From: Methylomonas rapida
Lineage (GTDB): Bacteria > Pseudomonadota > Gammaproteobacteria > Methylococcales > Methylomonadaceae
Assembly (NCBI RefSeq): GCF_024360925.2
Contig: NZ_CP113517.1
Span: 4,134,001-4,198,000 of the forward strand
Length of the DNA: 64,000 nucleotides
Direction: 5' to 3'
Below the pieces are notes generated by a model. The model searched no databases. It was given only the letters and a program-made list of their open reading frames with translations, and was not told the origin of the DNA. Position numbers and translations under genes: made by a program. Of the stretch, positions 2,141-49,344 are shown piece by piece (the stretch's first letter is position 1; each line of letters starts with the position of its first letter).

Positions 2141-2208
2141 AAAGCCCCCGAACCGGAATGTGATAATGCACAAAGTCTAGACAAAATGGCTTGAACATGA
2201 AACTGGCG

Positions 2209-2236: not shown

Positions 2237-2270
2237 CAGCGGCAACATCCCATTTTTTAGAGGTATCAAC

Positions 2271-4844: not shown

Positions 4845-4855
4845 ATCAACGGTTA

Positions 4856-4897: not shown

Positions 4898-4926
4898 GCA
4901 CCTGAAGCTTAATCGCACCGTTGGTT

Positions 4927-5781: not shown

Positions 5782-5827
5782 TGCAGCCCCCTTTTTGCCT
5801 TTCCAACCAGCAGCCTGTCACGATGCC

Positions 5828-6313: not shown

Positions 6314-6401
6314 CACGCTGCCCTCGCTTTCCAAAATGAGTTTGGTCGTAGGAACGCCTTACAAAGCAGATTTCCCTGGCAGGGACCTCGTATCGACGAC
6401 G

Positions 6402-7816: not shown

Positions 7817-7880
7817 ACTGTCGTGAAACACTTTAAAATTGCCGCATATTAGCAAAAAAACCGCAAAACCAGCAGCTTAC

Positions 7881-8447: not shown

Positions 8448-8451
8448 GCCG

Positions 8452-8949: not shown

Positions 8950-9167
8950 GAAGCCGATCAATCGCGACAAGCCTCTCATGCGACATTCGATGCGCTTTGT
9001 TAGGCCCCCCTATGCGATACTAACGATCATGAAAAAGCAGCCTCACCCCGATAAACAAAAGCTTGCCCGCAAAGAGCTTGACAAAATCTTGAAAACAAAA
9101 CCAAACTGACTTGCAAAAAGCCTGTCGGCTAACGCGAATCTCTAAGTCAATACCGCTGCGAGGCCCC

Positions 9168-9737: not shown

Positions 9738-9795
9738 GCCCATTCTTGGAAAAGCCAGGGCCTGTTTTCGGCGATGGCCTTGGTTACGGCAGCCG

Positions 9796-10611: not shown

Positions 10612-10756
10612 GATGTCAATCTCGGTCTCGTTAAATCAGTCGGCTATAATGACAGCGTTTTTGATTTGTACAAGGCGGAAGTGAATGTCTTTTTTCCAGA
10701 CGGGCCCGTTTTTTTATCCCCCGTACCAAGCGATTGCCGCCGATTTCATCTAGCCA

Positions 10757-15183: not shown

Positions 15184-15195
15184 GCCGTCTCCGCC

Positions 15196-15687
15196 CTAAT
15201 TTCGCCGCAACGGAGCTTGCAAGGTTATTTGCGCATCGACCGCAAAAGCCTTGCCAAAACCCGCAACGAATTGGCCTTGATTGGGGCTCAAGGCCAGCAG
15301 GTGAAAATCCGGCAAGCTTGTCAACAATCCGATGATGTCGCCGAATTTTTCCGCCATGGCTTGCAGAATTCGCTGATGCTCGGAATGGGTTTTGGGGATT
15401 TCCCTCGCCCGGCATTCCAGCGTCAAGCGCCGGCGCGCGAATGGATTGCCAGCGTCGGCCTCGTCTTCGATGAACATGATGGAAGCCTGCGGATGAGCCA
15501 ATAGATTTTTCGTGTGTTTCGCCAGTTCACTGACGAAAATATAAAAGCTTCCGTCCGTCCTCAAATAAGGCGCATAACTGATGTCGGCGTTGCCATCCGC
15601 GTCCCGACTGGCCAACAACAAGGTTTGCCGGCTGGCGATCAGGCGATCGCAGGCCGCTTGCAGGACTTCAAGCTCGGTTTCCATCAT
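15196..15687 (-). CDS. HugZ-like pyridoxamine 5'-phosphate oxidase-fold protein
   Basis: This 163-aa split-barrel protein resembles the heme-utilisation HugZ family. Visible features are SRQTLLLASRDADGNADISYAPYL (first barrel strands), FVSELAKHTKNL and the LTLECRARE and PNQGQFVAGFGKAF segments; the last is typical of HugZ C-termini. It may bind or degrade heme, or bind a flavin; the sequence alone does not decide. ATG 15687 overlaps the tag stop as ATGA. The c-di-GMP gene follows after 12 bp. Confidence 0.8.
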   Translation of the reverse strand: MMETELEVLQAACDRLIASRQTLLLASRDADGNADISYAPYLRTDGSFYIFVSELAKHTKNLLAHPQASIMFIEDEADAGNPFARRRLTLECRAREIPKTHSEHQRILQAMAEKFGDIIGLLTSLPDFHLLALSPNQGQFVAGFGKAFAVDAQITLQAPLRRN

Positions 15688-16256
15688 GGGTGCAAATTAG
15701 TTAACTGGGAATGGCGATAGCAGTCGATGGTGTGGTCGTTGACCATGCCCACGGCCTGCATGTAGGCATAGCAAATCGTCTTGCCGACGAATTTGAAACC
15801 GCGTTGCCGCAAATCCTTGCTCATGCGCTCCGATTCGGCGCTGAAAGCCGGCAACTCGGCATGCGTGCGCCATTGATGCTGTATCGGGTTACCGTCGACA
15901 AAGCCCCAGATATAGGCAGCGAATCCACCAAACTGCTCGCGCACCTGCAAAAAGGCCCTGGCATTGATGACGGCGGCCTGAATTTTCAAGCGATTGCGCA
16001 CGATGCCGGAGTCATTCAGCAATGCCTCTAATTTAACGGCGTCATAAGCCGCAATTTTTTCGGCATCGAAGTCGTCAAAAGCCCGCCGGTAAGCCTCGCG
16101 CTTGTCCAGAATGGTGCGCCAGCTCAATCCGGCTTGCGCGCCTTCCAGGATCAGGAATTCGAATAACTTGCGATCGTCGTGTAGCGGTACGCCCCATTCC
16201 AGGTCGTGATAGCGCTCCTCGTTGGCGCTGGCGAGCGCCCAGCGACATTTAGTCAT
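15684..16256 (-). CDS. tag: DNA-3-methyladenine glycosylase I
   Basis: Tag excises 3-methyladenine from alkylated DNA. The 190-aa protein begins MTKCRWALA with the zinc-binding Cys. It has YHDLEWGVPLHDD, FLILEGAQAGLSWRTIL (catalytic-pocket Glu) and near its end MVNDHTIDCYRH, holding the His and Cys that complete the zinc snap. All diagnostic residues are present. It overlaps yajD by 8 bp at its start and hugZ by 4 bp at its end. Confidence 0.95.
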   Translation of the reverse strand: MTKCRWALASANEERYHDLEWGVPLHDDRKLFEFLILEGAQAGLSWRTILDKREAYRRAFDDFDAEKIAAYDAVKLEALLNDSGIVRNRLKIQAAVINARAFLQVREQFGGFAAYIWGFVDGNPIQHQWRTHAELPAFSAESERMSKDLRQRGFKFVGKTICYAYMQAVGMVNDHTIDCYRHSQLTNLHP

Positions 16257-22421: not shown

Positions 22422-22451
22422 AAAAAAGGGCTGCACTTTTCAGTGCAGCCC
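22422..22451 (-). terminator. Rho-independent terminator of the carbonic anhydrase-SulP transcript
   Basis: GGGCTGCACT (22428-22437) and AGTGCAGCCC (22442-22451) form a perfect 10-bp stem with a 4-nt loop. On the minus strand the stem runs into six T residues. It is placed 58 bp beyond the sulP stop. Confidence 0.9.
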
Positions 22452-22508: not shown

Positions 22509-24077
22509 TCAATGTCCCGTCGGCACGACATTTTCCACACTAAAACCTTGTATTTCGACATTGATATTGTCGTCCGGCGCCGCCAACAAAAAGTCAGCAA
22601 TGGTCTCCAAGATATCCTGGTCGATGAACAACGCCTTGTTGCCGTCAATCAACAACGTGCTGTCTTCGGGTATACCGCTCAAATGTTTGCGCAGCAAGGC
22701 TTTGTTCAGGAAGGAAACATCCTTGTGCAAGCGCAGCAAATAATGCGAGCCATGTTGGGTCAAGGTCATTGCCTCGTGGAAGTTCGCACGCAACACGAAG
22801 ATGATACCCACGACCATACCAATGACGATACCTTCCAACAAGTCGGTAAACAAAATGGCGACCACGGTAATCGCGAACGGCAAGAATTGGTTCCAGCCCT
22901 TGTTATAAAACTCGCGAATCATCGAGGGCTTGGCCAATTTATAGCCGGTTTGCAGCAGAATCGCCGCCAAGCAAGCCAGTGGAATCATGTTCAGGTATTT
23001 AGCAAAGAACAATACGCTGATGGCCAGAAAAATACCGTGGAAGAAACAAGACATGCGCGTTTGACCACCAGAATTGATATTGGCCGCGCTTCGCACGATA
23101 ACGGCTGTGATCGGCAAGCCGCCCACCAATCCACTGAGCATATTGGCAAAACCTTGCGCTTTCAGTTCGCGATTGGTTGGTGAGATACGCTTGTGAGGGT
23201 CCAGCTTGTCGACGGCCTCGATACTCAGCAGGGTTTCCAGGCTGGCGATGATCGCCAGGGTGGCCGCAATGCTATATATCTTGGCATTGCCAATGTAGCT
23301 GAAATCCGGCATGCGTAATTGGGCCACGAAGTTGGAAATGGAACCCAGCTCCGGCAAGGAAACCATGTGCCTCTCGCTGATGGCCAACTCTGGGGCAAAG
23401 TTTTTCGCCCACAGGGAAAAACCGACGCCCCAGACAACCACGATCAGAGGGCCGGGGACCAAGCGTACCAGCTTCAAGCGTCTCAATAAATTGGTTTCCC
23501 ACAGAACCAAAACCACCAAGGCCACGATGCTGACCACTGTGGCGCCGGGCGAAACCCCATGAATCATACCGTGCAAGGATTGCAGCAGTTCGGTAAAACT
23601 CGAATGCGCGCTCTCCTGCATATAGCTTTCGTCACCGACGAAACTGGCGTCAAAACCAGTCGCGTGCGGCGTTTGCTTGATGATCAAAATCATGCCGATA
23701 GCAGCCAGCATGCCTTTGATCACCGACGCGGGAAAAAACGCCCCGATCAAACCCGCCTTCAAAAAACCTAATGTCATTTGCAGGACACCCGCAATCACCA
23801 GGCTCAATAAAAAGGCCTTGAAATCGCCCAGCGTGGCAATGGCATCGAATACGATCACCGTCAGGCCGGCCGCGGGCCCGGATACGCTCAAATGCGAACC
23901 GCTTCCCCAAGCAACAATCGTCCCGCCTATGATGCCGGCAATGACGCCCGAAAACAGCGGCGCACCCGACGCCAACGCAATACCCAGACACAGCGGTAGC
24001 GCCACCAGAAACACCACGATGCTGGCGGGAATGTCTTTGCCAAGATTGCTCAAATAATAATTTACATGCGATTTCAT
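22509..24077 (-). CDS. SulP family anion transporter (probable bicarbonate)
   Basis: This 522-aa inner-membrane transporter has an N-terminal SulP core with many hydrophobic segments. It has the conserved VFLVALPLCLGIALASGAP and the SGPAAGLTVIVFDAI block, and a short C-terminal STAS-like part. SulP proteins carry sulfate, bicarbonate or other anions. Its position directly after a carbonic anhydrase gene, and beside the DabA cluster, argues for inorganic carbon, but this is inference. GAGAG lies just upstream of ATG 24077. Confidence 0.88.
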   Translation of the reverse strand: MKSHVNYYLSNLGKDIPASIVVFLVALPLCLGIALASGAPLFSGVIAGIIGGTIVAWGSGSHLSVSGPAAGLTVIVFDAIATLGDFKAFLLSLVIAGVLQMTLGFLKAGLIGAFFPASVIKGMLAAIGMILIIKQTPHATGFDASFVGDESYMQESAHSSFTELLQSLHGMIHGVSPGATVVSIVALVVLVLWETNLLRRLKLVRLVPGPLIVVVWGVGFSLWAKNFAPELAISERHMVSLPELGSISNFVAQLRMPDFSYIGNAKIYSIAATLAIIASLETLLSIEAVDKLDPHKRISPTNRELKAQGFANMLSGLVGGLPITAVIVRSAANINSGGQTRMSCFFHGIFLAISVLFFAKYLNMIPLACLAAILLQTGYKLAKPSMIREFYNKGWNQFLPFAITVVAILFTDLLEGIVIGMVVGIIFVLRANFHEAMTLTQHGSHYLLRLHKDVSFLNKALLRKHLSGIPEDSTLLIDGNKALFIDQDILETIADFLLAAPDDNINVEIQGFSVENVVPTGH

Positions 24078-24109
24078 ATTGATCTCTCAATCGTTGCTCA
24101 AGCTAAGGC

Positions 24110-24742
24110 TCAATTGGCGTACTGATAAATGGGATTGATCTGAGTCGTGTGATCCAAACTGATCAGTTGATCGATCAATCCATCCTTCAGGCCGTACACC
24201 CATCCATGCAACGAAGGCTTATGACCGTGTTTCCAGGCCGCTTGAATGATGGAAGTATGCGCCAAGCGATAAACTTGCTCGATGATGTTCAATTCAATCA
24301 TCCGATCCAGTTTTTTCTCCGGGGTAATGGATTCGAGCTCTTCTTGATGCAGGCGATAAACATCCTTGATGTGCATCAGCCACTTGTTGGCAATAACCAA
24401 ATCCGCGCTTTGCGGCTGCAAGGCCGCCTTGACGCCGCCACAGCCATAATGACCGCAAACGATGATGTGCTTGACCTTCAACACGTCAACGGCGTACTGC
24501 AACACACTCAGGCAGTTGAAATCGGTAATGATGACCTGATTGGCGATATTTCGATGCACGAAAATCTCACCTGGCTGGGCGTTGACGATGGTGTCGGCCG
24601 GCACGCGGCTATCGGCGCAGCCTATCCACAAGAATTCCGGCTTTTGTTCCTTGGCCAATAATTTGAAGAATTCAGGATTTTTTTTACTGACTTCTTCGGA
24701 CCAGGCTTTGTTTTCTAACAGTAATTTTTCAGGTGTGTGCAT
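24110..24742 (-). CDS. can: Beta-class carbonic anhydrase
   Basis: This enzyme interconverts CO2 and bicarbonate in the cytoplasm. From ATG 24742 (AAGGA 8 nt upstream) it is 210 aa. The zinc ligands Cys42, His98 and Cys101 and the Asp44-Arg46 dyad (CADSR) sit at the same numbers as in E. coli Can. Trp39 and Gly41 of the bicarbonate allosteric pocket are kept too, so it should be a type II, allosterically controlled enzyme. It precedes sulP by 32 bp and follows the DabA pump block by about 280 bp. Confidence 0.95.
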   Translation of the reverse strand: MHTPEKLLLENKAWSEEVSKKNPEFFKLLAKEQKPEFLWIGCADSRVPADTIVNAQPGEIFVHRNIANQVIITDFNCLSVLQYAVDVLKVKHIIVCGHYGCGGVKAALQPQSADLVIANKWLMHIKDVYRLHQEELESITPEKKLDRMIELNIIEQVYRLAHTSIIQAAWKHGHKPSLHGWVYGLKDGLIDQLISLDHTTQINPIYQYAN

Positions 24743-24842
24743 AACGATCATCCTTCATTAGCTAAATTAAAAATCATCTCAACGGTTTGAGCATCGGTGT
24801 TCACTCATACGCCGAGCCAGCTATATGGGTTTTTTGCCTAAC

Positions 24843-24907
24843 TATATCGAATCGAAACTATATGTCAAGAGAGCGCATATTTCAACATTTAGTTTCGATT
24901 CGATATA
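24843..24907. promoter_or_regulatory. Perfect 18-bp inverted repeat upstream of carbonic anhydrase
   Basis: TATATCGAATCGAAACTA (24843-24860) is repeated in reverse complement at 24890-24907 with a 29-bp spacer. Each arm contains TCGAATCGA or its complement. CTATAT also recurs at 24821, 24842 and 24858. The block lies 101 bp upstream of the carbonic anhydrase start and beyond the end of the pump genes. It is a strong candidate operator for a dimeric regulator of the can-sulP transcript. Confidence 0.65.
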
Positions 24908-25020
24908 AATAAAATTTCCTTGCTCTTTTTTTACGCGCCGTTTTGTCAATTTGCTATCACCCAACCTCTGGTTTAAAACAATCGCACAAGCCACCATCAG
25001 TCAATTCAATGTGCAGCGAA

Positions 25021-26592
25021 TCAACGCCCCATCCAGCTCGATATGAGACCTTCATTGGATAACATCGGTCTTTGATTGGCGTGCGTCAACAATATGACGG
25101 GCTGATGAAAGCGCCGCAACCAGACAGTCAGCGTAGCTTCTTGGCTAGAAAAAAGAGATTGCGGCCACATCCCCAACAACAAGACCAGACAAGCGGGAAC
25201 AAGCAACAACAAGAATTCTCGCACCCTGACATCCTGCATGCCGGCAACTTCCGCATGCAAAATCGGACCGAAAAAGCCGCGTCTGACAAAATTCAGGCAA
25301 TAGCCGGCGCCGACTACCGCGGCGAACAACACGACCACGCTTAGCGCCGGATAGGTTTTTAACGTACCGATAAACAACAACAATTCGGCCGGAAAACCAT
25401 TGGTAAGCGGCACGCCCATGCTGGACAGGACAAACAGGAAAAATAGCACCGTCAGCCGCGGCATGGGTTTGGCAAGACCGCCCAAATGCACCAGCTCATT
25501 GCTCCCCAAGCGCTGCTGTATCATGCCCGCGATCAACATCAAGCTGCCGGCCACGATGCTGAAATTCAGCAATTGCATGACCGCGCCCTGCAGCCCCTGC
25601 AAGGTAAACGAGGCAATCCCTACCAACACCAAACCGACATGGCTGATGCCGGCATAAGCCAGCAAGCGACGCAGATTGGTTTGTTTCAGCGCAATCAAGC
25701 CAGCGTAAATCATGGTGCTCGCGCCCAAGATCGCAAGCAGCCAGCGATGCTGCATGGCCGCTTCCGGCGCCAACGGAATCGCAAAGCGAATGAAGCCGTA
25801 AACGCCGAGTTTAAGCGCCATCAGCAACGCGCTGATTTGCGTCGGCGCCTCCATCGCCACGGTCGGCAACCAGGTATGAAACGGCAACAACGGCGCCTTG
25901 ACCGCAAAACCCAACATCAGCAGCAGAAAAATCAGCTCTTGCTCGGCCAAGCCTAGCGGCGTATTCAACAAAATCGGCAAACTGAACTGCAAGTCTTGCG
26001 GTATGGCACCGCCGGTTAGATGCGCATGATTCAGCGCCAGCAGGATGATCGCGAATAATAGCGGCACGCCGCCGAACAACATATATAAGGTATATTTCAT
26101 CGCCGCATGACGCCGCTCCGCGCCTATGCCCCACAAACCGATCAGGAAAAAAATCGGCGGCAGCGTCAATTCCCAGAACAGGAAAAACAACGCCAGATCC
26201 AGCGCGGTGAACACTGCCAGGGTGACGCTTTCCAATATCAGCAGCAGAGCCAAATGAAAGCGGGTTAAATGCCGCACCGTGTTCCAGCCAGCCAGCAAAG
26301 CCATCACGGTCAGCAATGCCGTCATCGGTAAAAACCACAGCGAAATGCCGTCCACGCCCACCTGATAATGAATATTCAGACCCGGTATCCAGGCATAATC
26401 TTCCAACAATTGAAAGCCGCCATAGTCGGGATTGAATTGCTTGACAACCAGCAAGGTCAGCAGCAGCTCGATGCCCGCCACGCCCAGGGCCAACCCTTTG
26501 GCCGTCGGCAAGTGCCTGACAAAAGCCAGCGCCAGGGCCCCCAGCAATGGCCAGCCCAAACAAAGCGTCAATATGGGAAAGGTCTCATTCAT
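25021..26592 (-). CDS. NuoM-like proton-channel subunit (DAB cluster, distal)
   Basis: This 523-aa membrane protein of the complex I / Mrp antiporter family (PF00361) has the family charge relay. Glu141 is in FLFWELTLPP, Lys232 in FAVKAPLLPFHTWLP, and MEAPTQISALLMALKLGVYG follows. With no other complex I genes beside it, it probably conducts protons for DabA-driven carbon uptake. The start MNETFP at 26592 overlaps the preceding gene by 8 bp; the upstream extension to 26643 is rejected. It is the last gene of the pump block. Confidence 0.88.
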   Translation of the reverse strand: MNETFPILTLCLGWPLLGALALAFVRHLPTAKGLALGVAGIELLLTLLVVKQFNPDYGGFQLLEDYAWIPGLNIHYQVGVDGISLWFLPMTALLTVMALLAGWNTVRHLTRFHLALLLILESVTLAVFTALDLALFFLFWELTLPPIFFLIGLWGIGAERRHAAMKYTLYMLFGGVPLLFAIILLALNHAHLTGGAIPQDLQFSLPILLNTPLGLAEQELIFLLLMLGFAVKAPLLPFHTWLPTVAMEAPTQISALLMALKLGVYGFIRFAIPLAPEAAMQHRWLLAILGASTMIYAGLIALKQTNLRRLLAYAGISHVGLVLVGIASFTLQGLQGAVMQLLNFSIVAGSLMLIAGMIQQRLGSNELVHLGGLAKPMPRLTVLFFLFVLSSMGVPLTNGFPAELLLFIGTLKTYPALSVVVLFAAVVGAGYCLNFVRRGFFGPILHAEVAGMQDVRVREFLLLLVPACLVLLLGMWPQSLFSSQEATLTVWLRRFHQPVILLTHANQRPMLSNEGLISSWMGR

Positions 26593-28117
26593 GGTCGTTC
26601 CGATGCTGACCGCGATGCCGGGGATAATGCTGGCCGATTTCACTGGCCTCCTGATCGATGAACTTCAACCACGGCGTGGTGTAAAAACCGGTGCCGATCA
26701 GCAATCCGCAAATGATCAAGGTAATGAGGCGCTCTTTCAGCACGGGATGATGTCGGCTGCTGTATGGCTGGATGAAGCGTTTCGGATGGGCGATGAACAC
26801 GCGTTGAAAAGCCCACAGCAAAAAACCGGCTGCCAGCACATTACCCAACAAAATGGCAATGGCGACGAACCAACCGTGTTCCTCTATGGCGCCTTCTATC
26901 AGCAAATGCGCCGCATCGAAGCCCGGCGTGCCCGGCATCACCATCGTGCTGAGCGCCGAAATCAAAAACAGCAACGCAATCGACGAATTGGCTTCGAACA
27001 AGCCGCCGAGACGCGGAAAAAACGAGGTGCGGGTGCGCTCATAAATCAGCCCGATGCTGAAGAACATGCCTGCCGTCGCCAAACCATAAGCCAGCGACAG
27101 CAATATGCTGCCTTCCAGCGCGAAGTCATTGAAGGAAAACACGCCTATCACCAGCATGCCGGTATGACTGATCACCGCGAACGCCAGCAAGCGCCGCATG
27201 TTGATCTGCATCAAAGCCAGCAAGGCCCCGTAAAAAATACCGATCAATCCCAGGCTGACGACAAACGGCGCCCATTGTTCGGCGGCGCCAGGCACCAATG
27301 GCAGGATGAAACGAATCAGCGCGTAAATCCCCAATTTCAGACCGATCAAAAAGGTCGCGGCACTCGCCACGGTGCCGTGCTCGGCCAGGAGCGGCAACCA
27401 GGCATGGAACGGAAACAGGGGCATCCGTACCGCAAATCCGAAAAACAGCAAAATGAAGATCAGGGCTTCGTTCGGTATCGCCAGTTTATGCTGTTTCAGC
27501 GTCAACCAATCGAACGTCAGCGGCGCGCCGTTTTCGCTCAAACCGTATCCCAGCAGCAAAAAACCGACCAAGCTCATGATCAAGGCCGACCCCCAATATT
27601 GCAGCACGACATTGATGACCTGGCTCCGCTGCCGGCCAGTACCGGCCGACAAGGTCAACAGGACCACCGGTACCAGTTCCAGCAAACACCAAAACCAGAA
27701 CTGCATCGCGTTCAAGGCCGCGAAGGCACCGATCAAAATCCCCTGATAGGCCAACAAACACGCCACGAACAAGCGGTCGTTGCGATGCCGGGTAATCAGT
27801 GTATAAATCAAGGCCAGCAGCCCCAACACGGCGGTCAACGGAATGAACAGAACATTAGTGCCATCGACGCCAACCCGATAACCCATGCCGAACAAATAAA
27901 AATGTTCCGCCAGATGGATGCCAGGGGTTTCCGCATCAAAGATTCGCAGCAAATACAGGCTCAACACCACATTGACCGTGGCACCCCAGACAGCGGTCCG
28001 CAACATATACTCGGCACGCACCCACAACACCGCCGCCATCGTCAGCAGCGGCACTACCGTCAGCGCCGTCAGCAACGGGAACAAACTCACCGCCGACCAG
28101 GACACGAGATTGGTCAT
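26585..28117 (-). CDS. NuoM-like proton-channel subunit with an Arg in place of the key Lys
   Basis: This 510-aa PF00361 membrane protein is related to complex I NuoM. The Glu in WCLLELVPVVLL (residue 147) is kept. The usual Lys of the VKMPxFPFHxWLP helix is Arg231 here (FAVRMPLFPFHAWLP), unlike the other three pump subunits. AEHGTVASAATFLIGLKLGIYA replaces the usual EAP segment. It starts inside the NuoL-like gene stop (ATGA, 28117-28114), so translation is coupled. It is either a non-pumping structural subunit or one with altered proton affinity. Confidence 0.85.
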   Translation of the reverse strand: MTNLVSWSAVSLFPLLTALTVVPLLTMAAVLWVRAEYMLRTAVWGATVNVVLSLYLLRIFDAETPGIHLAEHFYLFGMGYRVGVDGTNVLFIPLTAVLGLLALIYTLITRHRNDRLFVACLLAYQGILIGAFAALNAMQFWFWCLLELVPVVLLTLSAGTGRQRSQVINVVLQYWGSALIMSLVGFLLLGYGLSENGAPLTFDWLTLKQHKLAIPNEALIFILLFFGFAVRMPLFPFHAWLPLLAEHGTVASAATFLIGLKLGIYALIRFILPLVPGAAEQWAPFVVSLGLIGIFYGALLALMQINMRRLLAFAVISHTGMLVIGVFSFNDFALEGSILLSLAYGLATAGMFFSIGLIYERTRTSFFPRLGGLFEANSSIALLFLISALSTMVMPGTPGFDAAHLLIEGAIEEHGWFVAIAILLGNVLAAGFLLWAFQRVFIAHPKRFIQPYSSRHHPVLKERLITLIICGLLIGTGFYTTPWLKFIDQEASEIGQHYPRHRGQHRNDHE

Positions 28118-29688
28118 GATGCATACCCCAGCGCCACCATCAGCGTGATCAGCACGAACAAGGCCAGATAGCGCGGACTCAGCAACATGCGCTCAAATCG
28201 ATTGGCCGCCCGCCCGAGCCGGCGCCCCAAATGTATCGAATGTTTGCCAATACCCCGTAAAATGAAATGGTATTCAAACCAGCTCATCAGCGCGGCACTC
28301 CATTGCGCCAGCTTGCCGGCCAGGCCACTGCCCTGGGCAAAACTGTCTTCCTCGCTTTCCAAATTCGCGCCCATGCGTCTTTCTTCCCATTGCGCCAGCG
28401 AGGAAATCGCCTTGATCGCCGGTGCCGGCACGCCCAGCAGCGGATCGATGAATTTTTCGTCTATCGTGCGCATGTCGCTGGCCAGGCGCTGGATCGGTTT
28501 CAACAATAGCCAGTCCACGGCCGGCTCCAACCAGCCACGCTGCAACGACACTAAAAATGCCCAGCGGCATCGCGCCAGGGCCGGCACGACCGGTTTAACC
28601 GGCTCGCCATGGGTCACGTGCAAAATCGACGGTGCCGTCAGCAGCAAATAACAGCGCACTACGGCATGGGCGCACAGATGCCAGGCCGCCAAGGTCCAAA
28701 ATCCCAGGCCGCATTCGACGAACATCAAGCCCAACTGCGCGGAAATCGCAAAGACATGCGAGCTTTTGATGTCGGTCTGGCTCAACCCGACCCAATGGCT
28801 GTAGACCGTCGTCAATGCGCCGATCACGACCAAAACCGTCATCGCCAGCGGCGCCTGTTCGAACAAGGTCTGTAATTGAATCAGCAAAAACACCCCGGCA
28901 TGTATCATCACGCCGCCGTAAAACACCGCGCTGGACGGCGTCGGCCCTTCCATTGCCCGCGCCAGCCAAGGCGTGAATGGAATTTGCGCCGATTTGGCAA
29001 ACGCAGCCACGGCAAAACTCAGCGCAAGCAGCGTGGCGTCGCCGCGCGCCAAATCGCCGGCCGTCGCATTGATGAGTTGCCAATCCGAGCTTTCCAGCCA
29101 AACCAAGCTCAAGCCCATGCCCAGCAAGAAACCGCCATCGCCGACGCGATTGGTGACAAATGCGCGGGTGGCGTTATGCGCCGCGACGGGCCTGTCATAG
29201 GCATAGGCGATCAGGCAATAGGAACAAAGCCCCGCCACTTCCCAACCGACGAAAGTAAACAACGCGTTGCCGGACAGCACCAACAGCAACATCGCCGCGG
29301 CAAACAGATTCAAGCAGAAAAAGAAGCGGTGAAACCCGGCTTCACGATGCAAGTAATTGACGGAAAAACTCATCACGATGAATAGCAGCAGCGTAAACAG
29401 CGTCGCCAACAACAAATTGAACCCCGCCGCCTTCAGGCTGAATGAAATATGCAAGCCGCCCATACCGAGCCAATCGCCATAATTGAACACCTCGCCGCTC
29501 TGGCCAAACTGAGTGCCGATTGATAGCGTCACCGCCGCAAGCGCCGTCAGCGCCATCGAGGTCAGCGTAATGCGCGCCGTGGTTTTCTCGCCGTCGACGC
29601 CGTTCGTCACGCCGGCGAAATGGAGCACACCAACCGAGACCGCGGCCAAGAAGGGCAATAAAGGCAACAACACGATCCAGGCATTCAT
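28114..29688 (-). CDS. dabB: NuoL-like subunit, probable DabB partner of DabA
   Basis: This 524-aa membrane protein resembles NuoL/MrpA antiporter subunits. It has TFVGWEVAGLCSYCLIAY (Glu150), VTNRVGDGGFLLGM, AAFAKSAQIPFTPWLARAMEGPTPSSA (Lys232) and FYGGVMIHAGVFLL. The last differs from true NuoL and is like the DabB type. A long amphipathic C-terminal region ends in one more membrane helix. Its ATG overlaps the dabA stop as ATGA. DabB is known to form a complex with DabA and to supply proton motive force for CO2 capture. Confidence 0.85.
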   Translation of the reverse strand: MNAWIVLLPLLPFLAAVSVGVLHFAGVTNGVDGEKTTARITLTSMALTALAAVTLSIGTQFGQSGEVFNYGDWLGMGGLHISFSLKAAGFNLLLATLFTLLLFIVMSFSVNYLHREAGFHRFFFCLNLFAAAMLLLVLSGNALFTFVGWEVAGLCSYCLIAYAYDRPVAAHNATRAFVTNRVGDGGFLLGMGLSLVWLESSDWQLINATAGDLARGDATLLALSFAVAAFAKSAQIPFTPWLARAMEGPTPSSAVFYGGVMIHAGVFLLIQLQTLFEQAPLAMTVLVVIGALTTVYSHWVGLSQTDIKSSHVFAISAQLGLMFVECGLGFWTLAAWHLCAHAVVRCYLLLTAPSILHVTHGEPVKPVVPALARCRWAFLVSLQRGWLEPAVDWLLLKPIQRLASDMRTIDEKFIDPLLGVPAPAIKAISSLAQWEERRMGANLESEEDSFAQGSGLAGKLAQWSAALMSWFEYHFILRGIGKHSIHLGRRLGRAANRFERMLLSPRYLALFVLITLMVALGYAS

Positions 29689-32600
29689 CCGTTCACACCT
29701 CCCGCCACGTTGACCTGCTGGATCAGCATCGGCGCTACCGGTCCCGTTTCATCGCGGTAACAATCCTTGGAATTCTCTCGCTCCGGCACGGCTTCTGCCG
29801 GCGCATGCCAGGGTACAAAACCGATACCTCGCTCGAACAGGAAAATATCGCCGCTCTCGGGGTCCTGTGCAGAAAGATGCACCCAGCCGCCGCCTATAAG
29901 TTCCCGCAGCCCCTCTTGCTTGGCATAAATATTCTCCAAAACCTTGGTTTTGGCTTCGACGACGATTTGCAGCCGCATCGGTTCGTGAATCTCCACCATT
30001 TGCAAGGGCAAGCCGGTGCGCAAATCGCTGCCAGCGCCTTCCATCACGCCGAACAGGCCGGTGACGTTATGCGGAATCTTGGTGCCGCAACCCAAGCGTT
30101 CGTTGTTGACGCTGGAAAAGTAATATTCCAGATTGATGCCGGCGCCAACCGGGCCAGCGGTCAATAAAATGTTTTCCAAAATCGTGCCGTCGGCGTCCTG
30201 AGTTGGATCATAGGAAATCAAAAACAAGCGGCGATCGAAAAACGCGCCTTGCGTCGCCGCGCGCCGACCGATGTACGCTGCCGCATTGGTGGCATGCCCG
30301 AATTCCGGCCGTACTTGACTCAAGTCCATTGCCCGATTTTCGACAGCGCGAATCGCGGCCTTACCCGATCTTGGTTTGGAACCGGCGAAACGGCGGCACC
30401 GCTCCTGGGCTGCCAGGCCGTCGGCCTCAAGTACACAAGCTTGGACGCGGACAAAGTCGTCCCGCCGAGCAGAAGGAATTTGCTCCGTATCGAACCAGGT
30501 CACGATGTCACTGCAGGTATCGTGCTGAGCGCCGACGAACCAAGTGTCGTCTGGAATCGAAATGCCGCGTTCGGCCAGCAACCGCCGTACTTCCGGGCGG
30601 TTGGCCATGGCCGCGAAAACCCTGGCATTGGGCCCGCCCTGACGGCCGCCGCAGGCGCCACAATCATGGGCGGCTTCGTGCGGATTGTTCTGGCTGGTAG
30701 AGCCATGCCCCATCAGCGCGACGATGGGGGCAAAACCATAGGTCAAACCAGTGGTTCGCAGGAATTGCGCAACCCTATCGGCTTGTTCCTGGTCGGTAAA
30801 TCCAAGTTTTGGCGCTTGCACCATTGCAGATGTCGCATCGTCCGCGACAAAATGCAATTGCGTCGCCACCTTCGGAACCAATAATCGCTGCCAACCCAAT
30901 TCCAGATGCCGCTGACCGGTCGGCCACAGCGTTTTTCCGAGCAAACGCAGCAAATTGACCGGCGCGAAGACATACAGCAACGGGTAGGCCAACACCAAAC
31001 TGGCGCGCAGATTTTGATACAACTGATAGGCCAAGCCGTGAGTCATATGCAAGCCCTTGGCGTGTGCAACCAGCTGCTGTGCTTGCCCTGGTCGGATCAC
31101 TTCGTCGATCCGATGCGCGGGCTTGACCACCACCGGACACAGCGGTGTCACGTCATGCGCATCCAAAGGCTTATAGTTCATCGCCACCCCAAAGAAACCC
31201 GCGGCTCCCAAGGTTTCGATGGCGGGATTCAATTCTTCCAGATGGCGGCGAAAACTTTCTTCGCGCTCGTCCATGCAAAAAAAGATTTGGGCCCGCGGCC
31301 GGGTATCGCGCCGAGCCCAGCGCCCGCGCCGGCGATTGGCATGCAAGGTTCGTAATAATACCTGCCGATAATGACGCTCATAAGCTTCCAGCCAGACTTC
31401 GCCGCGCTGTCTTTCGTTGAATCCATCGATAAGTCGCAATAGATCGAGCAATTGCGCTTTGCTCAATTGTGCCAGCTCGGCTGTGCTGAGTTGCAGCCAG
31501 TCACATACTTTTAATAAGCGCCAGCCCTGATCATAAACGCTGAGTTTGTCGGGTTGAATGGCCAAGGGCGATTGGCGCCAGGTCCAAATGCGCTCGGCCA
31601 GCATGGACCAATCTTGGCTCTCCCGGCAGTTACTGCCCAACAAGGTTTGCGCTGCTTGCGCCAAATATTCCGGCAACTCACCGTTGAATAACGCCTGCCT
31701 GACCACGAATTCAGCACCGTGTTTGCCGAAATATGCCTGCAGCTTGTCCAAGCGCGGTTCACAATGCCAATGCTTACGGCAAAGGTCGTAGAGATAGGCG
31801 CGATCGAGAACGAGGCGTATCGCCAGATAATCCGCCAACTCGGGTTTCGCGGCATTATGCGTTCGATAGTCCGGATGGGTTTGTCGCCAATTGATCAAAC
31901 CGGACCATCCCGGCAGTTCCAGCGCTAACCGCTGCAAATAACCGGACCAACGATCCTGCGGTATGGCCATGGCCTGCAATTGCTGGAGAATCGCATCGAC
32001 GGCATTGTCAGGCAATGCCGATACCAGCTCTTCCCAACATGCCAATTCTTGAAAAATCGGCTGCGCATCCTGCGAGGCCTGTTGCCGCCAAACGTGGTAC
32101 AAGCCTGAATCCTGCTGCGCCAATCGCCAGGCCGCGAGGCCTTCGTCCAGCAAGGAGGCGCAAATCCGGATGAGCTGCGGCCGCACGTTGTCCAGAATAT
32201 CGATGCCGCACAAAGCCTGCAGCAAGCCGCGCAAGGTCAACTTATCGCCGACCTGGACAAATAATGCCTCGATGTCAGCGTTTATCCGTTGACGCATGAG
32301 CCGCGCGTCATCGCCGACCGAGCCCTCGTTTTTGCTCGACAACCAGCGCTCGGCCTGCTCGCCGCTCAAATCCAACAATTGTTCCGGATGCAAATCGGGC
32401 GTCTCGAGTTCAAGCTTTTGCAGCAATATGTCCCATAAGGCTCCCCATGTCTCGCCATTGGCCGTGCGTTGCTGCAGAACACCCAACTCGTCCACTTGCC
32501 AATGCCACTGCGCCGGACTGATAACGGATAAATTGCCTAACAACCCCAACCGGTAGAGTTGTAACGCCGTGACGCATTTGTCGCCCACTCGACAAACCGG

Positions 32601-32903
32601 CGGCCTGGCCGACAATTGAAATTGCCGCTCCAGTACGCTGTCGATGTCGTCGTCATCGATGCGACCCTGGCGATAAAGGTCGCGGAATCGCGCGGCCGGC
32701 CAGTAACAGTCTATGCCGGTCAATGCGGAAAATTCGGCCAGGGCCTGTTCGAACGGCAAATGCTCAAAACCATGCAAGGTATTGTGATGCACGAAATCGT
32801 GAATGGGCGCCTGGCCCGGCAGCACATGATCCAGGTGCCGTATCGCCTCGACGATACCGTGCCGCAACGCGTCGTAAGTCGCTGAAACCGATTGCATACT
32901 CAA
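29685..32903 (-). CDS. dabA: DabA (UPF0753/DUF2309), energised CO2-hydrating subunit
   Basis: This 1072-aa peripheral protein has a beta-carbonic-anhydrase-like zinc site. Cys543 and Asp545 are in FCMDERE, His733 in GHGSTSQNNPHEAAHDC, and Cys748 lies 15 residues later, the same spacing as the zinc-binding His and Cys of the Halothiobacillus protein. The N-terminus has the family signature FVHHNTLHGFEHLPFEQAL. Together with a NuoL-type subunit it hydrates CO2 one-way, powered by the cation gradient. It is longer than DabA proteins of about 830 aa. The NuoM-like gene lies 49 bp upstream and the NuoL-like gene overlaps its stop. Confidence 0.95.
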   Translation of the reverse strand: MSMQSVSATYDALRHGIVEAIRHLDHVLPGQAPIHDFVHHNTLHGFEHLPFEQALAEFSALTGIDCYWPAARFRDLYRQGRIDDDDIDSVLERQFQLSARPPVCRVGDKCVTALQLYRLGLLGNLSVISPAQWHWQVDELGVLQQRTANGETWGALWDILLQKLELETPDLHPEQLLDLSGEQAERWLSSKNEGSVGDDARLMRQRINADIEALFVQVGDKLTLRGLLQALCGIDILDNVRPQLIRICASLLDEGLAAWRLAQQDSGLYHVWRQQASQDAQPIFQELACWEELVSALPDNAVDAILQQLQAMAIPQDRWSGYLQRLALELPGWSGLINWRQTHPDYRTHNAAKPELADYLAIRLVLDRAYLYDLCRKHWHCEPRLDKLQAYFGKHGAEFVVRQALFNGELPEYLAQAAQTLLGSNCRESQDWSMLAERIWTWRQSPLAIQPDKLSVYDQGWRLLKVCDWLQLSTAELAQLSKAQLLDLLRLIDGFNERQRGEVWLEAYERHYRQVLLRTLHANRRRGRWARRDTRPRAQIFFCMDEREESFRRHLEELNPAIETLGAAGFFGVAMNYKPLDAHDVTPLCPVVVKPAHRIDEVIRPGQAQQLVAHAKGLHMTHGLAYQLYQNLRASLVLAYPLLYVFAPVNLLRLLGKTLWPTGQRHLELGWQRLLVPKVATQLHFVADDATSAMVQAPKLGFTDQEQADRVAQFLRTTGLTYGFAPIVALMGHGSTSQNNPHEAAHDCGACGGRQGGPNARVFAAMANRPEVRRLLAERGISIPDDTWFVGAQHDTCSDIVTWFDTEQIPSARRDDFVRVQACVLEADGLAAQERCRRFAGSKPRSGKAAIRAVENRAMDLSQVRPEFGHATNAAAYIGRRAATQGAFFDRRLFLISYDPTQDADGTILENILLTAGPVGAGINLEYYFSSVNNERLGCGTKIPHNVTGLFGVMEGAGSDLRTGLPLQMVEIHEPMRLQIVVEAKTKVLENIYAKQEGLRELIGGGWVHLSAQDPESGDIFLFERGIGFVPWHAPAEAVPERENSKDCYRDETGPVAPMLIQQVNVAGGVNG

Positions 32904-32952
32904 ACCGTCACATCCCGCACGCAGCCAAAAACAACCATGGAGATCACTGGCT

Positions 32953-34425
32953 TCATGGCAGCCTCTCCCCGATCACGCGCAGCATGCGTCCCACGGTGGA
33001 CGTCGACAATTCGATCAACGGCGCCGGGATTAAACCGAAAAAAACGATAGCCGTCACCAATACGCCGGAAGCCATCAGCTCGACGGGTTTCAAATCGGCA
33101 ATGTGCCGCATCTGCGGCTTCACCGGCCCGGTAAACAACAAGCCTATGGTGCGCATCGCGTAGGCGGCGCTGATCAGGATGCTGAGGCTGAAAAACACCA
33201 TCAAACCGCCCCATTGCTGAAAGCCGCCGATCAGGGTATGCAATTCGGCGATGAACCCCACCGAACCGGGCAAGCCCATGGCCGCCAGCAAGGTCAAGGT
33301 GGTAAACGCGGCAAAACGCGGCATCACTTGCACCAGCGAACTGTAATCCTGAATGTTGCGAGTATGGGTGCGTTCGTAAAGCAGACCGACCAGCAAAAAC
33401 AAGGCGCCGGCGATCAAACCATGCGCGCTCATTTGCAAAATCGCGCCAGTAAATCCTGTCTGGTTCAGCGAGGCGATGCCCAACAGCACCACGCCCATGT
33501 GACTCAGGGAGGAATAAGCCACCATGGCCTTCAAATCGCGTTGCCGCCAGGCCAAAAGGCCGCCGTAAATCATGCCGAACAGGGCCAGAAACACCAGAAC
33601 GGGTTGCAGCATTTGTGCGGCGACCGGCAACATCACCACCGTGCGCAATAAACCATAGGCGCCCATCTTCAACAAAATGCCGGACAGCAGGATACTGATG
33701 GGACTGGGCGCTTCCACATGCGCCAGCGGCAACCAGCCATGCAGCGGAAATATCGGCATCTTGACGCCGAAACCCAGCAAAAAGCCCAGCAACACCAGCA
33801 CCTGTTCCGTTTTGGGCATGTTTTGCGCCACCTGCCCCATCGACACCATCAAGGAGCCTTGGTGCTCCAAATCGTACTGGCTGACCGCCAACAGGCTCAG
33901 CAACATGAATACCGAGCCGCCCATCGTGTACAACACGAAATTCAGACTGGCGGCATGACGGCGCTTGCCCCCCCAGCGATCGATCAGAAAGAACAGCGGA
34001 ATCAGCGTCACTTCCCAGAAGATATAAAACAAGGCCCAATCCTGCGCCATGAACACGCCAAGCATGCCGAATTCCAGCAACAAGATGCAGATGTGATAGC
34101 CCTTGGCGCCGTCCGTGACGCTCAATGAAGCCAGCAAGGCAATCGAGGTCAATAAGGTCGCCAACACCAACATCGGCAACGACAAGCCATCGATGCCCAG
34201 CGCATAGGCGCTACCCAGCTTGGGGTTGAGCGGAAAGAATTCGCTGAACTGCATCGTGCTATTGCCGGCATCGAAGCCCGCCAACAGTCCACACGCTAGC
34301 AAAAACGCGCACAGCGCCGCCAGGTTGCTGATCGCGCGGATCAGCCCCATGCGTTTAGCGGACACCGGAACCAGAAGCAAAGCGCCTAGCGCCGGGGTCC
34401 ATAGCAGCGAACTCAAAATTGCCAT
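32953..34425 (-). CDS. NuoM-like proton-channel subunit (first gene of the DAB cluster)
   Basis: This 490-aa membrane protein is the most NuoM-like of the four. It has YIFWEVTLIPLFFLIDRWGG (Glu138), GFGVKMPIFPLHGWLPLAH (Lys222), VEAPSPISILLSGILLKMGAYG and AYSSLSHMG. Complete charge relay residues suggest real proton transport. It heads the minus-strand block in front of dabA. The full block encodes four antiporter-type subunits for one DabA, more than the simple DabAB pair. Confidence 0.9.
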   Translation of the reverse strand: MAILSSLLWTPALGALLLVPVSAKRMGLIRAISNLAALCAFLLACGLLAGFDAGNSTMQFSEFFPLNPKLGSAYALGIDGLSLPMLVLATLLTSIALLASLSVTDGAKGYHICILLLEFGMLGVFMAQDWALFYIFWEVTLIPLFFLIDRWGGKRRHAASLNFVLYTMGGSVFMLLSLLAVSQYDLEHQGSLMVSMGQVAQNMPKTEQVLVLLGFLLGFGVKMPIFPLHGWLPLAHVEAPSPISILLSGILLKMGAYGLLRTVVMLPVAAQMLQPVLVFLALFGMIYGGLLAWRQRDLKAMVAYSSLSHMGVVLLGIASLNQTGFTGAILQMSAHGLIAGALFLLVGLLYERTHTRNIQDYSSLVQVMPRFAAFTTLTLLAAMGLPGSVGFIAELHTLIGGFQQWGGLMVFFSLSILISAAYAMRTIGLLFTGPVKPQMRHIADLKPVELMASGVLVTAIVFFGLIPAPLIELSTSTVGRMLRVIGERLP

Positions 34426-34498
34426 TGCGTATGAAAACTCGTCAAATTAGCGTACATTCTAAAGGCATTTGGTTGAAATAGGCCAATCCGGACAAAAA

Positions 34499-34514
34499 TG
34501 GTTTATTTAAACCA
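34499..34514. promoter_or_regulatory. Palindrome in the divergent DAB / ODP promoter region
   Basis: TGGTTTA and TAAACCA flank a 2-bp centre. The site lies in the 190-bp gap between the divergently read first pump gene and the ODP gene, so a regulator bound here could affect both. The role is inferred from symmetry and position. Confidence 0.4.
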
Positions 34515-34615
34515 AACATCTTGCATTAGCATTTCCGCCACACTGGTGAGTTTGATTTCGCAAAGCCGCTGGCTTCGTGTACCCTAGCCCGCCACAAATT
34601 GGAGTAACGCAAAAA

Positions 34616-35368
34616 ATGCGTAATAACATCACTTTATTCAACAGCGATCAGCATCGCTATATCCTGTTAAACGAAAGCGAACCGGGAGAAGAAGACGGCA
34701 TTCCGTCCAATCAATACCTGATTCTGCACAATGGCAAGGGCACCCTGCTGGACCCAGGCGGCTTCGGCGTGATGCCTCAAGTCTTGAACGAGATGCTGCA
34801 ATATTTGAATCCCGAGGACATCGAGGCCATCGTCCTGTCGCACCAGGACCCCGACATCGTCGGCGGCCTGAACAGCTGGATGCAGCTGACGCCAGCGCGC
34901 ATCTACGCGTCGCGCATCTGGCTGCGTTTTTTGCCGCATTACGGCATTTCCGGCATGCAACGCTTCATCGGCGTAGCCGACCAGGGCGAACACATCACGC
35001 TGGATTCAGGCCTAAGCCTGCAATTCGTGCCCGCGCATTTTTTGCATTCGCCCGGACAAATCAATGCCTACGACCCCTTGTCGAAAATCTTGTTTAGCGG
35101 CGATGTCGGCGCGGCGATGGTACCCACCGACGAGTGCGAGGTGTTCGTCAGTGATTTTCAACGCCACTTGCCGTTTACCGAGGGCTTTCACAAACGCTAC
35201 ATGGCATCGAATCGCGCCTTGCGCTATTGGGTGCAACAGGTCAGAAAGCTGGATGTAGACATCATCGCCCCGCAACATGGACCTCTGTATCGCGGTCAAG
35301 CCAAGGAGGATTTCTTGAATTGGCTGTATGACCTTGCCTGCGGCAGTGATTTGCTGGATGTCGAATAA
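34616..35368 (+). CDS. ODP-type diiron metallo-beta-lactamase-fold protein
   Basis: This 250-aa protein is of the flavodiiron-like metallo-beta-lactamase fold without a flavodoxin domain. Metal ligand motifs are LSHQDPDIVGGL, AHFLHSPGQ, FSGDVGAAM and APQHGPLYRG, the pattern of oxygen-binding diiron proteins (ODP). Members of this family bind O2 and can feed signalling modules. ATG 34616 with GGAG 12 nt upstream is chosen over an in-frame codon at 34577. The GGDEF-EAL gene begins on the next base after its stop, so the two are surely co-expressed. Confidence 0.85.
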   Translation: MRNNITLFNSDQHRYILLNESEPGEEDGIPSNQYLILHNGKGTLLDPGGFGVMPQVLNEMLQYLNPEDIEAIVLSHQDPDIVGGLNSWMQLTPARIYASRIWLRFLPHYGISGMQRFIGVADQGEHITLDSGLSLQFVPAHFLHSPGQINAYDPLSKILFSGDVGAAMVPTDECEVFVSDFQRHLPFTEGFHKRYMASNRALRYWVQQVRKLDVDIIAPQHGPLYRGQAKEDFLNWLYDLACGSDLLDVE

Positions 35369-37519
35369 ATGAATTATCCGCACAAAAAGCCATCGCAGAT
35401 CAAGGCACTGTATATTCACAGCATTCGCACCCTGACCGAATTGCTGGAAGCGCAAAATCGTACCCAGAGTTTCGACCGCGGCGTAATCGATCTGGCGATA
35501 CGCGAAGTGGAGAAGCTGGCCGAGAGCTTGCCGGCTTTATTCGATAACAACGATGCCAAGACCTTGACGGTCCAGCACGCCCAACGCTGCCGGACCGTGG
35601 CGGCCAGCCTGTCATTGCTGAATCGGCAGCAAACCAAGGAAGCACAGAAAAATCGCGGCTTGCTGAGTTCGTTGATCATGGAAACGCACGAACTGCTGCA
35701 GCGCATGGAATTGACGTTGATCGACAAAAGCCTGTTCGAGCGGCAGTCCGCGGTGCTGGAAAACATCATCCTGTCCCATGAAAAGGTCACACAGTGGAAG
35801 GAATTCGTGCAAGACATCCTGCTGGAATTTCATGGTTTTTTTCCCTTCAACTTCTTCACCATCGCGTTTACCGGCGAATCCGGCATCCACATTTATATCT
35901 ACTATCTGGGCCATTACTGTGAAAACACCAAGGAACGGGTACGCAAGCGCCTGGCGGAAAATTTGCTGGCGGAATTGAGCATATCCCCCGATTCGCTGAT
36001 CGAACTGGAAGAATTCGTCATAACCGACATCAAGCAGCAACGCGGTTTCGATGAAATCGAAACCATCACCGTCGCGGTACCCGACGAAAAAATAGGCGTC
36101 GGCGGGATTCTGGGCGTCAGCTATGCGTCGGGTTATCCCTTGACGGTGCAGGAACAAAGCATCATCCGCTCATTGCTGTCGGTGATGGTAATGGTGGTCG
36201 GCTCCAGCAAGACGCTGTCGCGCTCGCTGCAGGAATTGGCCTATTACGCCGAACACGACCCCTTGACCGGTTTGCACAACCGCCGCTATTTCAATGAAAT
36301 CCTGGAATACGAAATCGAACGCGCGACCCGCCACAACGATCGCTTTTCGCTACTGTCTCTGGATCTGGATAATTTCAAGAGCGTCAACGACAGCTTTGGC
36401 CACATGACCGGCGACCAGGTCCTGATGCATCTGGCGCAACTACTGAAAAAACAGCTACGCAAGGGGGACGTCGTCGTTCGCCTTGGCGGCGACGAATTTG
36501 CCGTGCTGCTGCCCGGCACGGATAGCGAAAGCGCCCTGCTGGTCGCCGAATCACTACGGGCAGCGGTACACGATTACGATTTCGTTCTGGAAGGACTGCA
36601 ACACCGCCATATCAATATCACCACCTCGATCGGCGTGGCCACCTTTCCGAACGACGCGCCGGTAATCACCGATTTGCTGAGCGGGGTTGATTTGGCCCTG
36701 TATCAGGCCAAGAGCGTCGGCAAAAATTTCGTCTGCCCGCTGCAAACTCTGGAAACATCCCTGGCCCAAAACAAAAAATTGCTGGGCTTGTCCGAAGTAC
36801 TGAAAAAAGCCCTGAAAGAAGAGCGCATCGTGCCGTATTTTCAACCCATCATGGCTTGTCAAAGCGGCGAATTGCACGCCTATGAGGCACTGGCTCGCCT
36901 GACCACCGAAACCGGCGAGATCATTTCCGCGGGCATGTTCATCGATGCGGCCGACAAGTACGGCATCAACCTGAACCTCGACCACATCATGCTGCGCAAG
37001 GTCACCGCCTTCATGGCCAATCACCAGGCGGCCACCGGGACGATGCCCACGGTATTCGTGAATTTGACGCCACAGGAAATCCAGCGCCGCGACATTTTGC
37101 AATATGCGGAAAACCTTTGCCTGCAATACGGCATTCCGCCGGCCAAATTGGTGTTCGAAGTCACCGAGCGCGAGGCCATCGGCGATTTGTCGAACATGCG
37201 CAAATTCTTGAGCAAATTGCGTGAAAAAGGCTTTGCCTTTGCATTGGACGATTTTGGCAGCGGCTACAATTCTTTCCATTATCTGCGTGAATTGCATTTC
37301 GAGTACGTCAAAATCGATGGCGCCTTCATTTCCAACATCCTGAATTCCAAGGTCGACAGTATTTTGATCGAAAACCTCAATCACCTTTGCCAGCAACTGG
37401 GCATGAAAACATTGGCCGAGTTTGTCGAATCCGAAGAAATCATGCTGAAATTACAGGCAATGGGCATAGACTATGCTCAGGGTTTCCATCTCGGCCTGCC
37501 GCGCGCCAATTTTCTTTAG
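35369..37519 (+). CDS. GGDEF-EAL c-di-GMP protein paired with the diiron sensor
   Basis: This soluble 716-aa protein has a helical, coiled-coil-like N-terminus (about 1-130) and a sensory region of GAF type (about 140-290). A GGDEF domain follows with [13 protein letters not shown] and [14 protein letters not shown], then an EAL domain with [32 protein letters not shown] and [13 protein letters not shown]. Both catalytic motifs are intact. It has no membrane helix, so the neighbouring diiron protein may be the input. The stop lies 4 bp before rlmH. Confidence 0.93.
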
Positions 37520-49272: not shown

Positions 49273-49344
49273 AACAACACCTAACGACCTATTTTTGGAT
49301 TTTGTCTGTAACGTGATACAAGGACGTTCACGGATTTTTTTAGA

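Follow-up and report, generated by a model that had tools for sequence, protein, structure and literature searches.

In DAB2 of Halothiobacillus neapolitanus, CO2 is held at a buried zinc site of DabA and hydrated only as protons flow through the DabB arm; the zinc-site residues are required, and Glu444 of the DabA2 finger is essential to activity, according to the excerpted text of the structural report, which also refers to two- and three-subunit systems (PMC13144422). Operons combining ybcC (dabA) with NuoM and SulP genes were distinguished as "clade C" in the COGNAT study of 2017, the excerpted text of which links the number of subunits to the number of ions (PMC5700660). Here we analyze a 64,000-nt stretch of the Methylomonas rapida genome (contig NZ_CP113517.1, positions 4,134,001 to 4,198,000; hereafter the window), in which a dabA gene is accompanied by four antiporter-type genes, whereas DAB1 and DAB2, as described, possess a single antiporter-type subunit.

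The locus (22509-34425, minus strand) contains seven open genes in the 5′-3′ order M1, dabA, L, M2, M3, can and sulP, where M1, M2 and M3 denote NuoM-like genes, L a DabB/NuoL-like gene and can a carbonic anhydrase gene. All the genes listed in a preliminary description of the window, made from its sequence alone (NuoM-like, dabA, NuoL-like, two NuoM-like, can, sulP), are thus present in the claimed order, open and on the minus strand. We consider it fairly probable, judging from sequence comparisons, that the first five genes encode an extended, proton-driven, CO2-hydrating DAB complex. The same description had combined a single DabA with four subunits of the antiporter type; that these belong with DabA and not with complex I is well supported by the gene order, the trees, the co-occurrence and the absence of NuoD. 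The physical assembly, stoichiometry, activity, direction and proton number of the complex are inferred. The genes of the block, whose Pfam scores range from 126.6 to 842.8 bits, are as follows:

32953..34425, minus strand: M1, NuoM-like antiporter subunit of 490 aa (Pfam Proton_antipo_M, 231.9 bits; TIGR01972, 478 bits; a clade of its own)
29685..32897, minus strand: DabA, 1070 aa from the ATG at 32897 (Pfam DabA, PF10070, 842.8 bits)
28114..29688, minus strand: L, DabB-type NuoL-like subunit of 524 aa (grouping with DabB proteins, SH-aLRT 100)
26585..28117, minus strand: M2, NuoM-like subunit of 510 aa with an altered charge set (R231, A403, E147 shifted by two, D401/H404)
25021..26592, minus strand: M3, NuoM-like subunit of 523 aa from the ATG at 26592 (Pfam, 214.2 bits; main channel residues kept)

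Alternative starts are a TTG at 32903 for DabA, giving the 1072-aa frame on which the residue numbers C543, D545, R547, H733 and C748 are based, and a GTG at 26643 for M3, giving the 540-aa frame used for its residue numbers. The claimed overlaps were found for dabA/L and L/M2 (ATGA, 4 nt each) and for M2/M3 (8 nt), but M1 and dabA do not overlap and are separated by 55 nt.

Conservation of the set was assessed in 80 wider loci, the top-ranking ones of 151 in which named genomes encode this DabA; the sample started from DabA and is therefore biased towards it. The complete and ordered arrangement M1-DabA-L-M2-M3 is present in 51 of the 80, and 7 more show as much of this order as the contig end permits. 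One locus (L017, Methylobacter tundripaludum SV96) has L in two frames and another (L055) a merged frame, 16 contain DabA-L with at most one M gene (13 planctomycete by title), and 4 carry DabA alone on short contigs. In SV96 the two halves of L (13488-16069 of the locus) lie approximately 900 nt apart, and this copy looks broken or interrupted. The 1015-aa frame of L055 was considered as an L-M2 fusion, which was rejected, because at the junction the terminal part of L is translated in a different frame; an indel therefore seems to have merged two overlapping frames. One Thiotrichaceae locus (L069) has a second DabA (1075-4362) on the opposite strand, directly upstream of M1 of the set. The set is carried, among others, by Methylococcales, Nitrotoga, Rhodocyclaceae/Azonexus/Dechloromonas, Accumulibacter, Thiotrichaceae and a bacterium of the Magnetococcales. 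Among the matches listed, from which very near records were perhaps left out, the nearest named relative of the window DabA is that of Methylobacter marinus (59% identity). The set was also found in 19 of 20 stretches of relatives chosen for a long DabA frame, the remaining one (L161) being of another type.

A sample of 398 genomes of the phylum was searched with M2, and thus not from DabA, as well as with PF10070. A match of at least 234 bits was taken as an M2 relative; below this value there is a gap down to 218 bits, where matches of M3 and NuoM-like proteins start. M2 relatives were identified in 36 genomes (own genome included; one match partial) and DabA in 69 (one under the cut-off). 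DabA is present in all 36 genomes with M2 versus 33 of the 362 without it (Fisher p 3e-32, kinship uncorrected), and with 36 of the 69 DabA-bearing genomes carrying M2, the set is widespread. A chance cluster was rejected on the basis of this co-occurrence and of the complete order in the 51 loci.

Twenty of the 35 M2 loci outside the own genome were read: 16 display the full order, 2 are cut by the contig end and retain DabA-L-M2-M3, and 2 lack DabA. The latter (L200 and L203, genomes G230 and G234 of one genus, 69% and 96% complete, respectively) have the order M1-M3-L-M2, with DabA alone on another contig, so that all five genes are kept. The set is thus retained even where the operon is not. 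The PF00361 matches of both genomes consist of these four genes and three complex I-looking ones on one contig.

A tree built from 482 aligned columns of 123 antiporter-type proteins (quick IQ-TREE run with support from the Shimodaira-Hasegawa-like approximate likelihood ratio test [SH-aLRT] only, 27 of 120 inner branches open, long-branch warnings) placed M1, M2, M3 and L in one clade each (17 rows each; support 100, 99, 99 and 98, respectively), apart from the NuoM and NuoL proteins of the same genomes. L sits with the DabBs (100), including the second DabB of its own genome and those of planctomycetes. M2 groups with the planctomycete M protein (96), but over a branch of 2.29 that may mislead. 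Nitrotoga nests among the methanotrophs in all four subunit clades, which fits joint transfer of the genes. Across 70 sets, the pairwise distances of the five proteins are correlated (r 0.93-0.97), although common ancestry alone also raises such values.

The channel residues of the subunits were compared using E. coli numbering; the window is among the aligned rows, and a few proteins are represented by more than one row (distinct rows: M1, 77 of 80; M2, 74 of 75; M3, 75 of 75; L, 79 of 80). The main channel residues of M1 are E138, K222, K253 and E394, and E144, K234, K265, H322, H348 and E407 (E. coli numbers) are kept in 80/80 rows. M3, with E158, K249, K278 and E420, keeps E144, K234, K265, H322 and E407 in 75/75 rows and H348 in only 3/75. 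M2 differs: the central Lys K234 is replaced by Arg (R231) in 75/75 rows and again in 20/20 further loci, and E407 by Ala or Val in 75/75 (A403 here; Val, Ala, Thr, Ile or His in the 20 further loci). K265 is kept in 75/75 rows, the Glu of transmembrane segment (TM) 5 (E147) lies two residues further on in 72/76, and D401 and H404 are invariant (76/76). Our initial designation of M2 as a dead channel was replaced by "rewired", because R231, D401 and H404 do not vary.

The zinc site of DabA (Cys543, Asp545, His733, Cys748), described beforehand as intact, is indeed so: C543, D545, R547, H733 and C748 align with C351, D353, R355, H524 and C539 of DabA2. The ligands and the D545/R547 pair are kept in 72/72 rows from five-gene loci and in 53/53 other DabA rows, among which are some duplicates as well as DabAs of this same kind with short flanking sequence. 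In 18 further loci, H733 and C748 are present in 18/18 rows and C543, D545 and R547 in the 16/16 that are readable.

L resembles NuoL up to approximately residue 360, with no NuoL-like TM12-15 seen in its sequence; beyond residue 331 there is only one strong hydrophobic segment (502-524). Its profile matches DabB2 of the DAB2 structure over the first 371 residues only, and it scores 163.7 bits with the NdhF3 model, for which 588.7 are needed. E144, R175, K229, K305 and H338 are kept in 80/80 rows, as are Arg in place of K342, Tyr in place of H254 and a gap at K399 of NuoL. Residues ~373-417 resemble the beginning of the lateral helix of NuoL (residues 554-599 in one such protein; hhalign probability 56%, pairwise E 1e-4), and match other DabBs better (94% and 84%; NuoM 0.1%). 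This stretch is followed by a tail of approximately 100 residues, ending in one hydrophobic helix, which is absent from the planctomycete L proteins (450-474 aa). By analogy with the lateral helix of complex I, we infer that the C-terminal part of L may reach along the M subunits.

By analogy with DAB2, a mechanism may be envisaged, in which (i) DabA, a zinc enzyme of the beta-carbonic anhydrase kind, would convert CO2 into bicarbonate inside the cell, (ii) it would dock on L, its DabB, (iii) M1, M2 and M3 would form three more complex I-type antiporter modules on the same membrane arm, and (iv) proton inflow via this arm would drive hydration one way. M1 and M3, with their main channel residues, would probably carry one proton each, and the rewired M2 would more likely be a coupling or spacer module. 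The chances seem evenly balanced that the product is a five-subunit, multi-channel, proton-driven carbonic anhydrase, whose carbonic anhydrase-like head replaces the redox arm on a complex I-like row of antiporter modules, which moves more than one proton per CO2 and in which M2 is a rewired coupling module. More than one proton per CO2 is suggested by the three added modules, two of which retain the main channel residues. A published precedent exists in variants of complex I that have as many as five pumping subunits and an extended lateral helix (PMC9040806). According to our own estimate, each proton at ~170 mV contributes ~16 kJ/mol and thereby raises the attainable bicarbonate/CO2 ratio roughly a thousandfold; this exceeds the needs of uptake, so the gain may lie in operation at low proton motive force (PMF) or high pH, or in other roles of the modules.

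The host genome (one contig, 4.59 Mb, rated 100% complete) contains pmoA, which supports its earlier designation as a methanotroph, and no match to RuBisCO was found in it. The bicarbonate would therefore not supply a carboxysome but ordinary carboxylases, as has been proposed for MpsAB in heterotrophs (PMC6689103, PMC8552792).

Several points weigh against such an extended pump. A hydrophobic segment is present in the window DabA, but Glu444 of the DabA2 finger aligns with Tyr644, and Glu is found at this place in 0/72 rows of the set, although the alignment of the finger is loose; proton coupling must therefore differ in detail from that of DAB2. The residue is Glu in only 8 of the 53 other rows, all of them DabAs of ~860 aa within the genus. 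Its absence was rejected as a mark of the five-gene set, since it is also missing in the second DabA of the genome and in 13/13 planctomycete rows. The lateral-helix match of L is weak (probability 56% against one NuoL profile and 19% against that of E. coli). Two genomes encode the four membrane genes apart from dabA, and kinship inflates both the co-occurrence and the distance-correlation figures. DAB2 works with one DabB alone (PMC13144422), and a carbonic anhydrase beside such a transporter has been argued to be wasteful (PMC8552792). Moreover, it is not evident why this organism, which makes CO2 from methane, should require a strong pump for CO2.

In another conceivable arrangement, DabA and L form an ordinary two-subunit DAB and M1-M3 a separate, co-regulated and co-inherited proton or sodium antiporter that balances pH or ions during CO2 hydration. 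The main channel residues of M1 and M3, the location of the antiporter genes apart from dabA in G230 and G234, and the requirement of DAB2 for only one partner (PMC13144422) are in keeping with it. However, in the same two genomes L accompanies M1, M3 and M2 instead of DabA, linking the M subunits to DabB itself, and the rewired M2 is no plain antiporter. No small subunit of the Mrp type was found among the nine proteins scanned at 22509-37519 (MrpB, C, E, F and G were not searched genome-wide). We regard a separate antiporter as unlikely.

The complex might also run in the opposite sense and conserve energy, the hydration of metabolic CO2 at a high internal concentration pushing ions out. Methanotrophs make much CO2, as this requires, and a near idea was advanced in the COGNAT study, whose excerpted text proposes export driven by an exergonic reaction, with subunit number tied to ion number (PMC5700660). 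Yet CO2 hydration yields only a few kJ/mol at normal internal pH by our estimate, less than the cost of one proton at full PMF, more channels worsen the energy balance, and the uncoupler carbonyl cyanide m-chlorophenylhydrazone (CCCP) stops uptake by DAB2 (PMC13144422); such an energy-conserving machine thus appears improbable. Even less credence, practically none, is given to the view that the NuoM-like genes are remnants or spares of respiratory complex I. It draws on the fact that M1, M2 and M3 all exceed the cut-off of the NuoM subfamily model TIGR01972. The comparison with complex I phylogeny, proposed beforehand as a check, was run: the four subunits form clades apart from the complex I subunits of the same genomes, and NuoD (49-kDa subunit) has no match in the host genome, which hence gives no indication of either complex I or a group 4 hydrogenase. 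Within the genus, a full-length NuoD was identified in only 2 of 37 genomes, neither of which has the long DabA. A complex I origin was rejected on these grounds, and the extended DAB complex is retained as the preferred interpretation.

When 3 unclear genomes of the genus are excluded, full-length NuoD is present in 0/29 genomes with a long DabA and in 2/5 without, 9 of the 29 having a partial match. Such partial matches (108-122 bits) occur in 10 genomes in addition to the two with full-length NuoD, some near a pair of PF00361 genes, and perhaps represent a hydrogenase-4-like cluster. The idea that the set excludes complex I is suggestive only within the genus, as other genera have both. The host genome encodes two DabAs and has seven PF00361 matches: four in the block, two that are parts of the DabB belonging to the second DAB, and a weak one in a divergent NuoL-like gene. 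This last gene (4423-1810, minus strand, of locus L092, 2963500-2970500 of the own genome; 31.6 bits to PF00361) is followed by genes for a DUF6671 protein and cysDN-like proteins (named by eye), with a LysR-type gene in divergent orientation. The layout resembles the LysR-NuoL-DabA arrangement of some DAB operons, but there is no DabA.

Downstream of the block the following features were identified:

24110..24751, minus strand: can, beta carbonic anhydrase of 213 aa (Pro_CA, 177.1 bits; PRK10437, 264.4 bits, cut-off 251)
22509..24077, minus strand: sulP, SulP-family anion (candidate bicarbonate) transporter of 522 aa (Sulfate_transp, 200.9 bits)
24841..24868, minus strand: promoter-like site TTGACA-16-TATAGT before can-sulP (sigma-70-like, 11/12 positions)
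22428..22451, minus strand: terminator-like hairpin and T run behind sulP (10 pairs, 7 G-C, TTTTTT tail)

Both genes do follow the block, as had been noted, but can begins 269 nt behind M3. Since this gap holds the sigma-70-like site and a terminator-like hairpin follows sulP, can and sulP probably constitute an operon of their own, outside the overlapping block; the promoter and terminator evidence is weak, because the counts in the region are near those of shuffled sequence (promoter-like sites, 6 versus 7.5; terminator-like, 26 versus 20.5). A 23-nt inverted repeat (24843-24907, 96% complementary) overlaps the promoter-like site, and its 18-nt half-site is found nowhere else in the whole window. 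A conserved operator before can was not supported: the repeat was not found before can in 16 other loci (crude scan, starts roughly set).

Close relatives of can and SulP (at least 200 bits) lie near the block in 15 of the 20 stretches of relatives, including 14/14 of the same genus. Among the 80 wider loci, a close can relative is found in one (L010), together with SulP, both upstream of M1. SulP genes scoring at least 200 bits are present in 12 of the 80, and another 26 loci have one at 60-200 bits, the weaker ones mostly in Rhodocyclaceae loci and on the other strand. SulP is therefore a frequent neighbour, as the COGNAT study noted, and can a habit of this genus. The window sulP scores 124 bits with the BicA model NF050096, far below the cut-off of 880. 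A beta carbonic anhydrase is paired with SulP in Methylococcus capsulatus (PMC11423575) and a carbonic anhydrase lies downstream of MpsAB in Bacillus subtilis (PMC8552792); the can-sulP pair is best seen as a neighbouring bicarbonate module.

Divergently from M1, at 34577-37519, genes for an ODP-type metallo-beta-lactamase-fold protein and then a GGDEF-EAL protein are located. Elsewhere in the window, 49755-51128 encodes a Zot-family protein (66.7 bits), of a kind usual in filamentous phages, near two long frames (47959-49395 and 58114-60039) with no Pfam match; this region is perhaps an inovirus-like prophage.

The antiporter modules of complex I are coupled over long distances to a chemical step, and how this is achieved is an open question. 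If the extended DAB complex is real, a CO2-hydrating head on a row of antiporters would provide a simple test system free of redox chemistry, with M2 as a naturally occurring variant of the conserved charge chain. Many bacteria presumed to possess a simple CO2 pump might then possess one that differs in its proton cost and in its reach when CO2 is low or the pH high.

As regards novelty, the preliminary description had proposed a new stoichiometry. The outline has been known since 2017, when operons in which, as here, dabA precedes a NuoL-like gene and is accompanied by NuoM and SulP genes were assigned to clade C, and the set is widespread; the excerpted clade C account names no five-gene set, three NuoM paralogues, M2 change or CO2 link (PMC5700660). 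For Nitrospira alkalitolerans, nuoL/M-like genes near BicA are reported, without mention of DUF2309 in the excerpted text (PMC7784846). No description of the five-gene set was found in open-licence PMC papers (titles and abstract starts), which likewise did not show the three M orthologues, the M2 change, the split set or the genome-wide co-occurrence.

The planctomycete-dominated DabA-L-M loci, some with SulP (11 of the 80, and a twelfth, L085, with overlapping frames), encode DabA, DabB and one NuoM-like protein in this order. They differ from the window in having only one M and a shorter L (450-474 aa), without the extra C-terminal part. A further arrangement was observed in a genome of the same order of bacteria (L161, genome G044, 4781-13275), where DabA is accompanied by a full-length NuoL-like protein of 683 aa, which has a lateral-helix region, and by two NuoM-like genes that retain the main channel residues; SulP is divergent. 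The 683-aa protein is sister to the DabBs (98, long end branch) and possibly represents a step between NuoL and DabB. Multi-module DabA arms may have been expanded more than once, in the five-gene set, the planctomycete DabA-L-M type and L161.

The cyanobacterial NDH-1MS complex also couples CO2 hydration to NuoL/NuoM-type subunits, as proposed for the window complex. NDH-1MS, however, is a whole complex I driven by electron transfer, with a different hydration subunit. Complex I with extra NuoM modules and a longer lateral helix (PMC9040806) is a redox enzyme, whereas the locus described here encodes DabA and no redox module. DAB2 (DabA2-DabB2, PDB 9rd0) shares with it the DabA family, the zinc ligands and the Asp-Arg pair, and L is a relative of DabB, a NuoL-like partner overlapping dabA by 4 nt. 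The two differ at the position of Leu658 of DabA2, which is His870 in the window DabA, and in composition: DAB2 has two subunits, with a DabA2 chain of 870 residues, and the Methylomonas block encodes a DabA of ~1070 aa with three more antiporter subunits.

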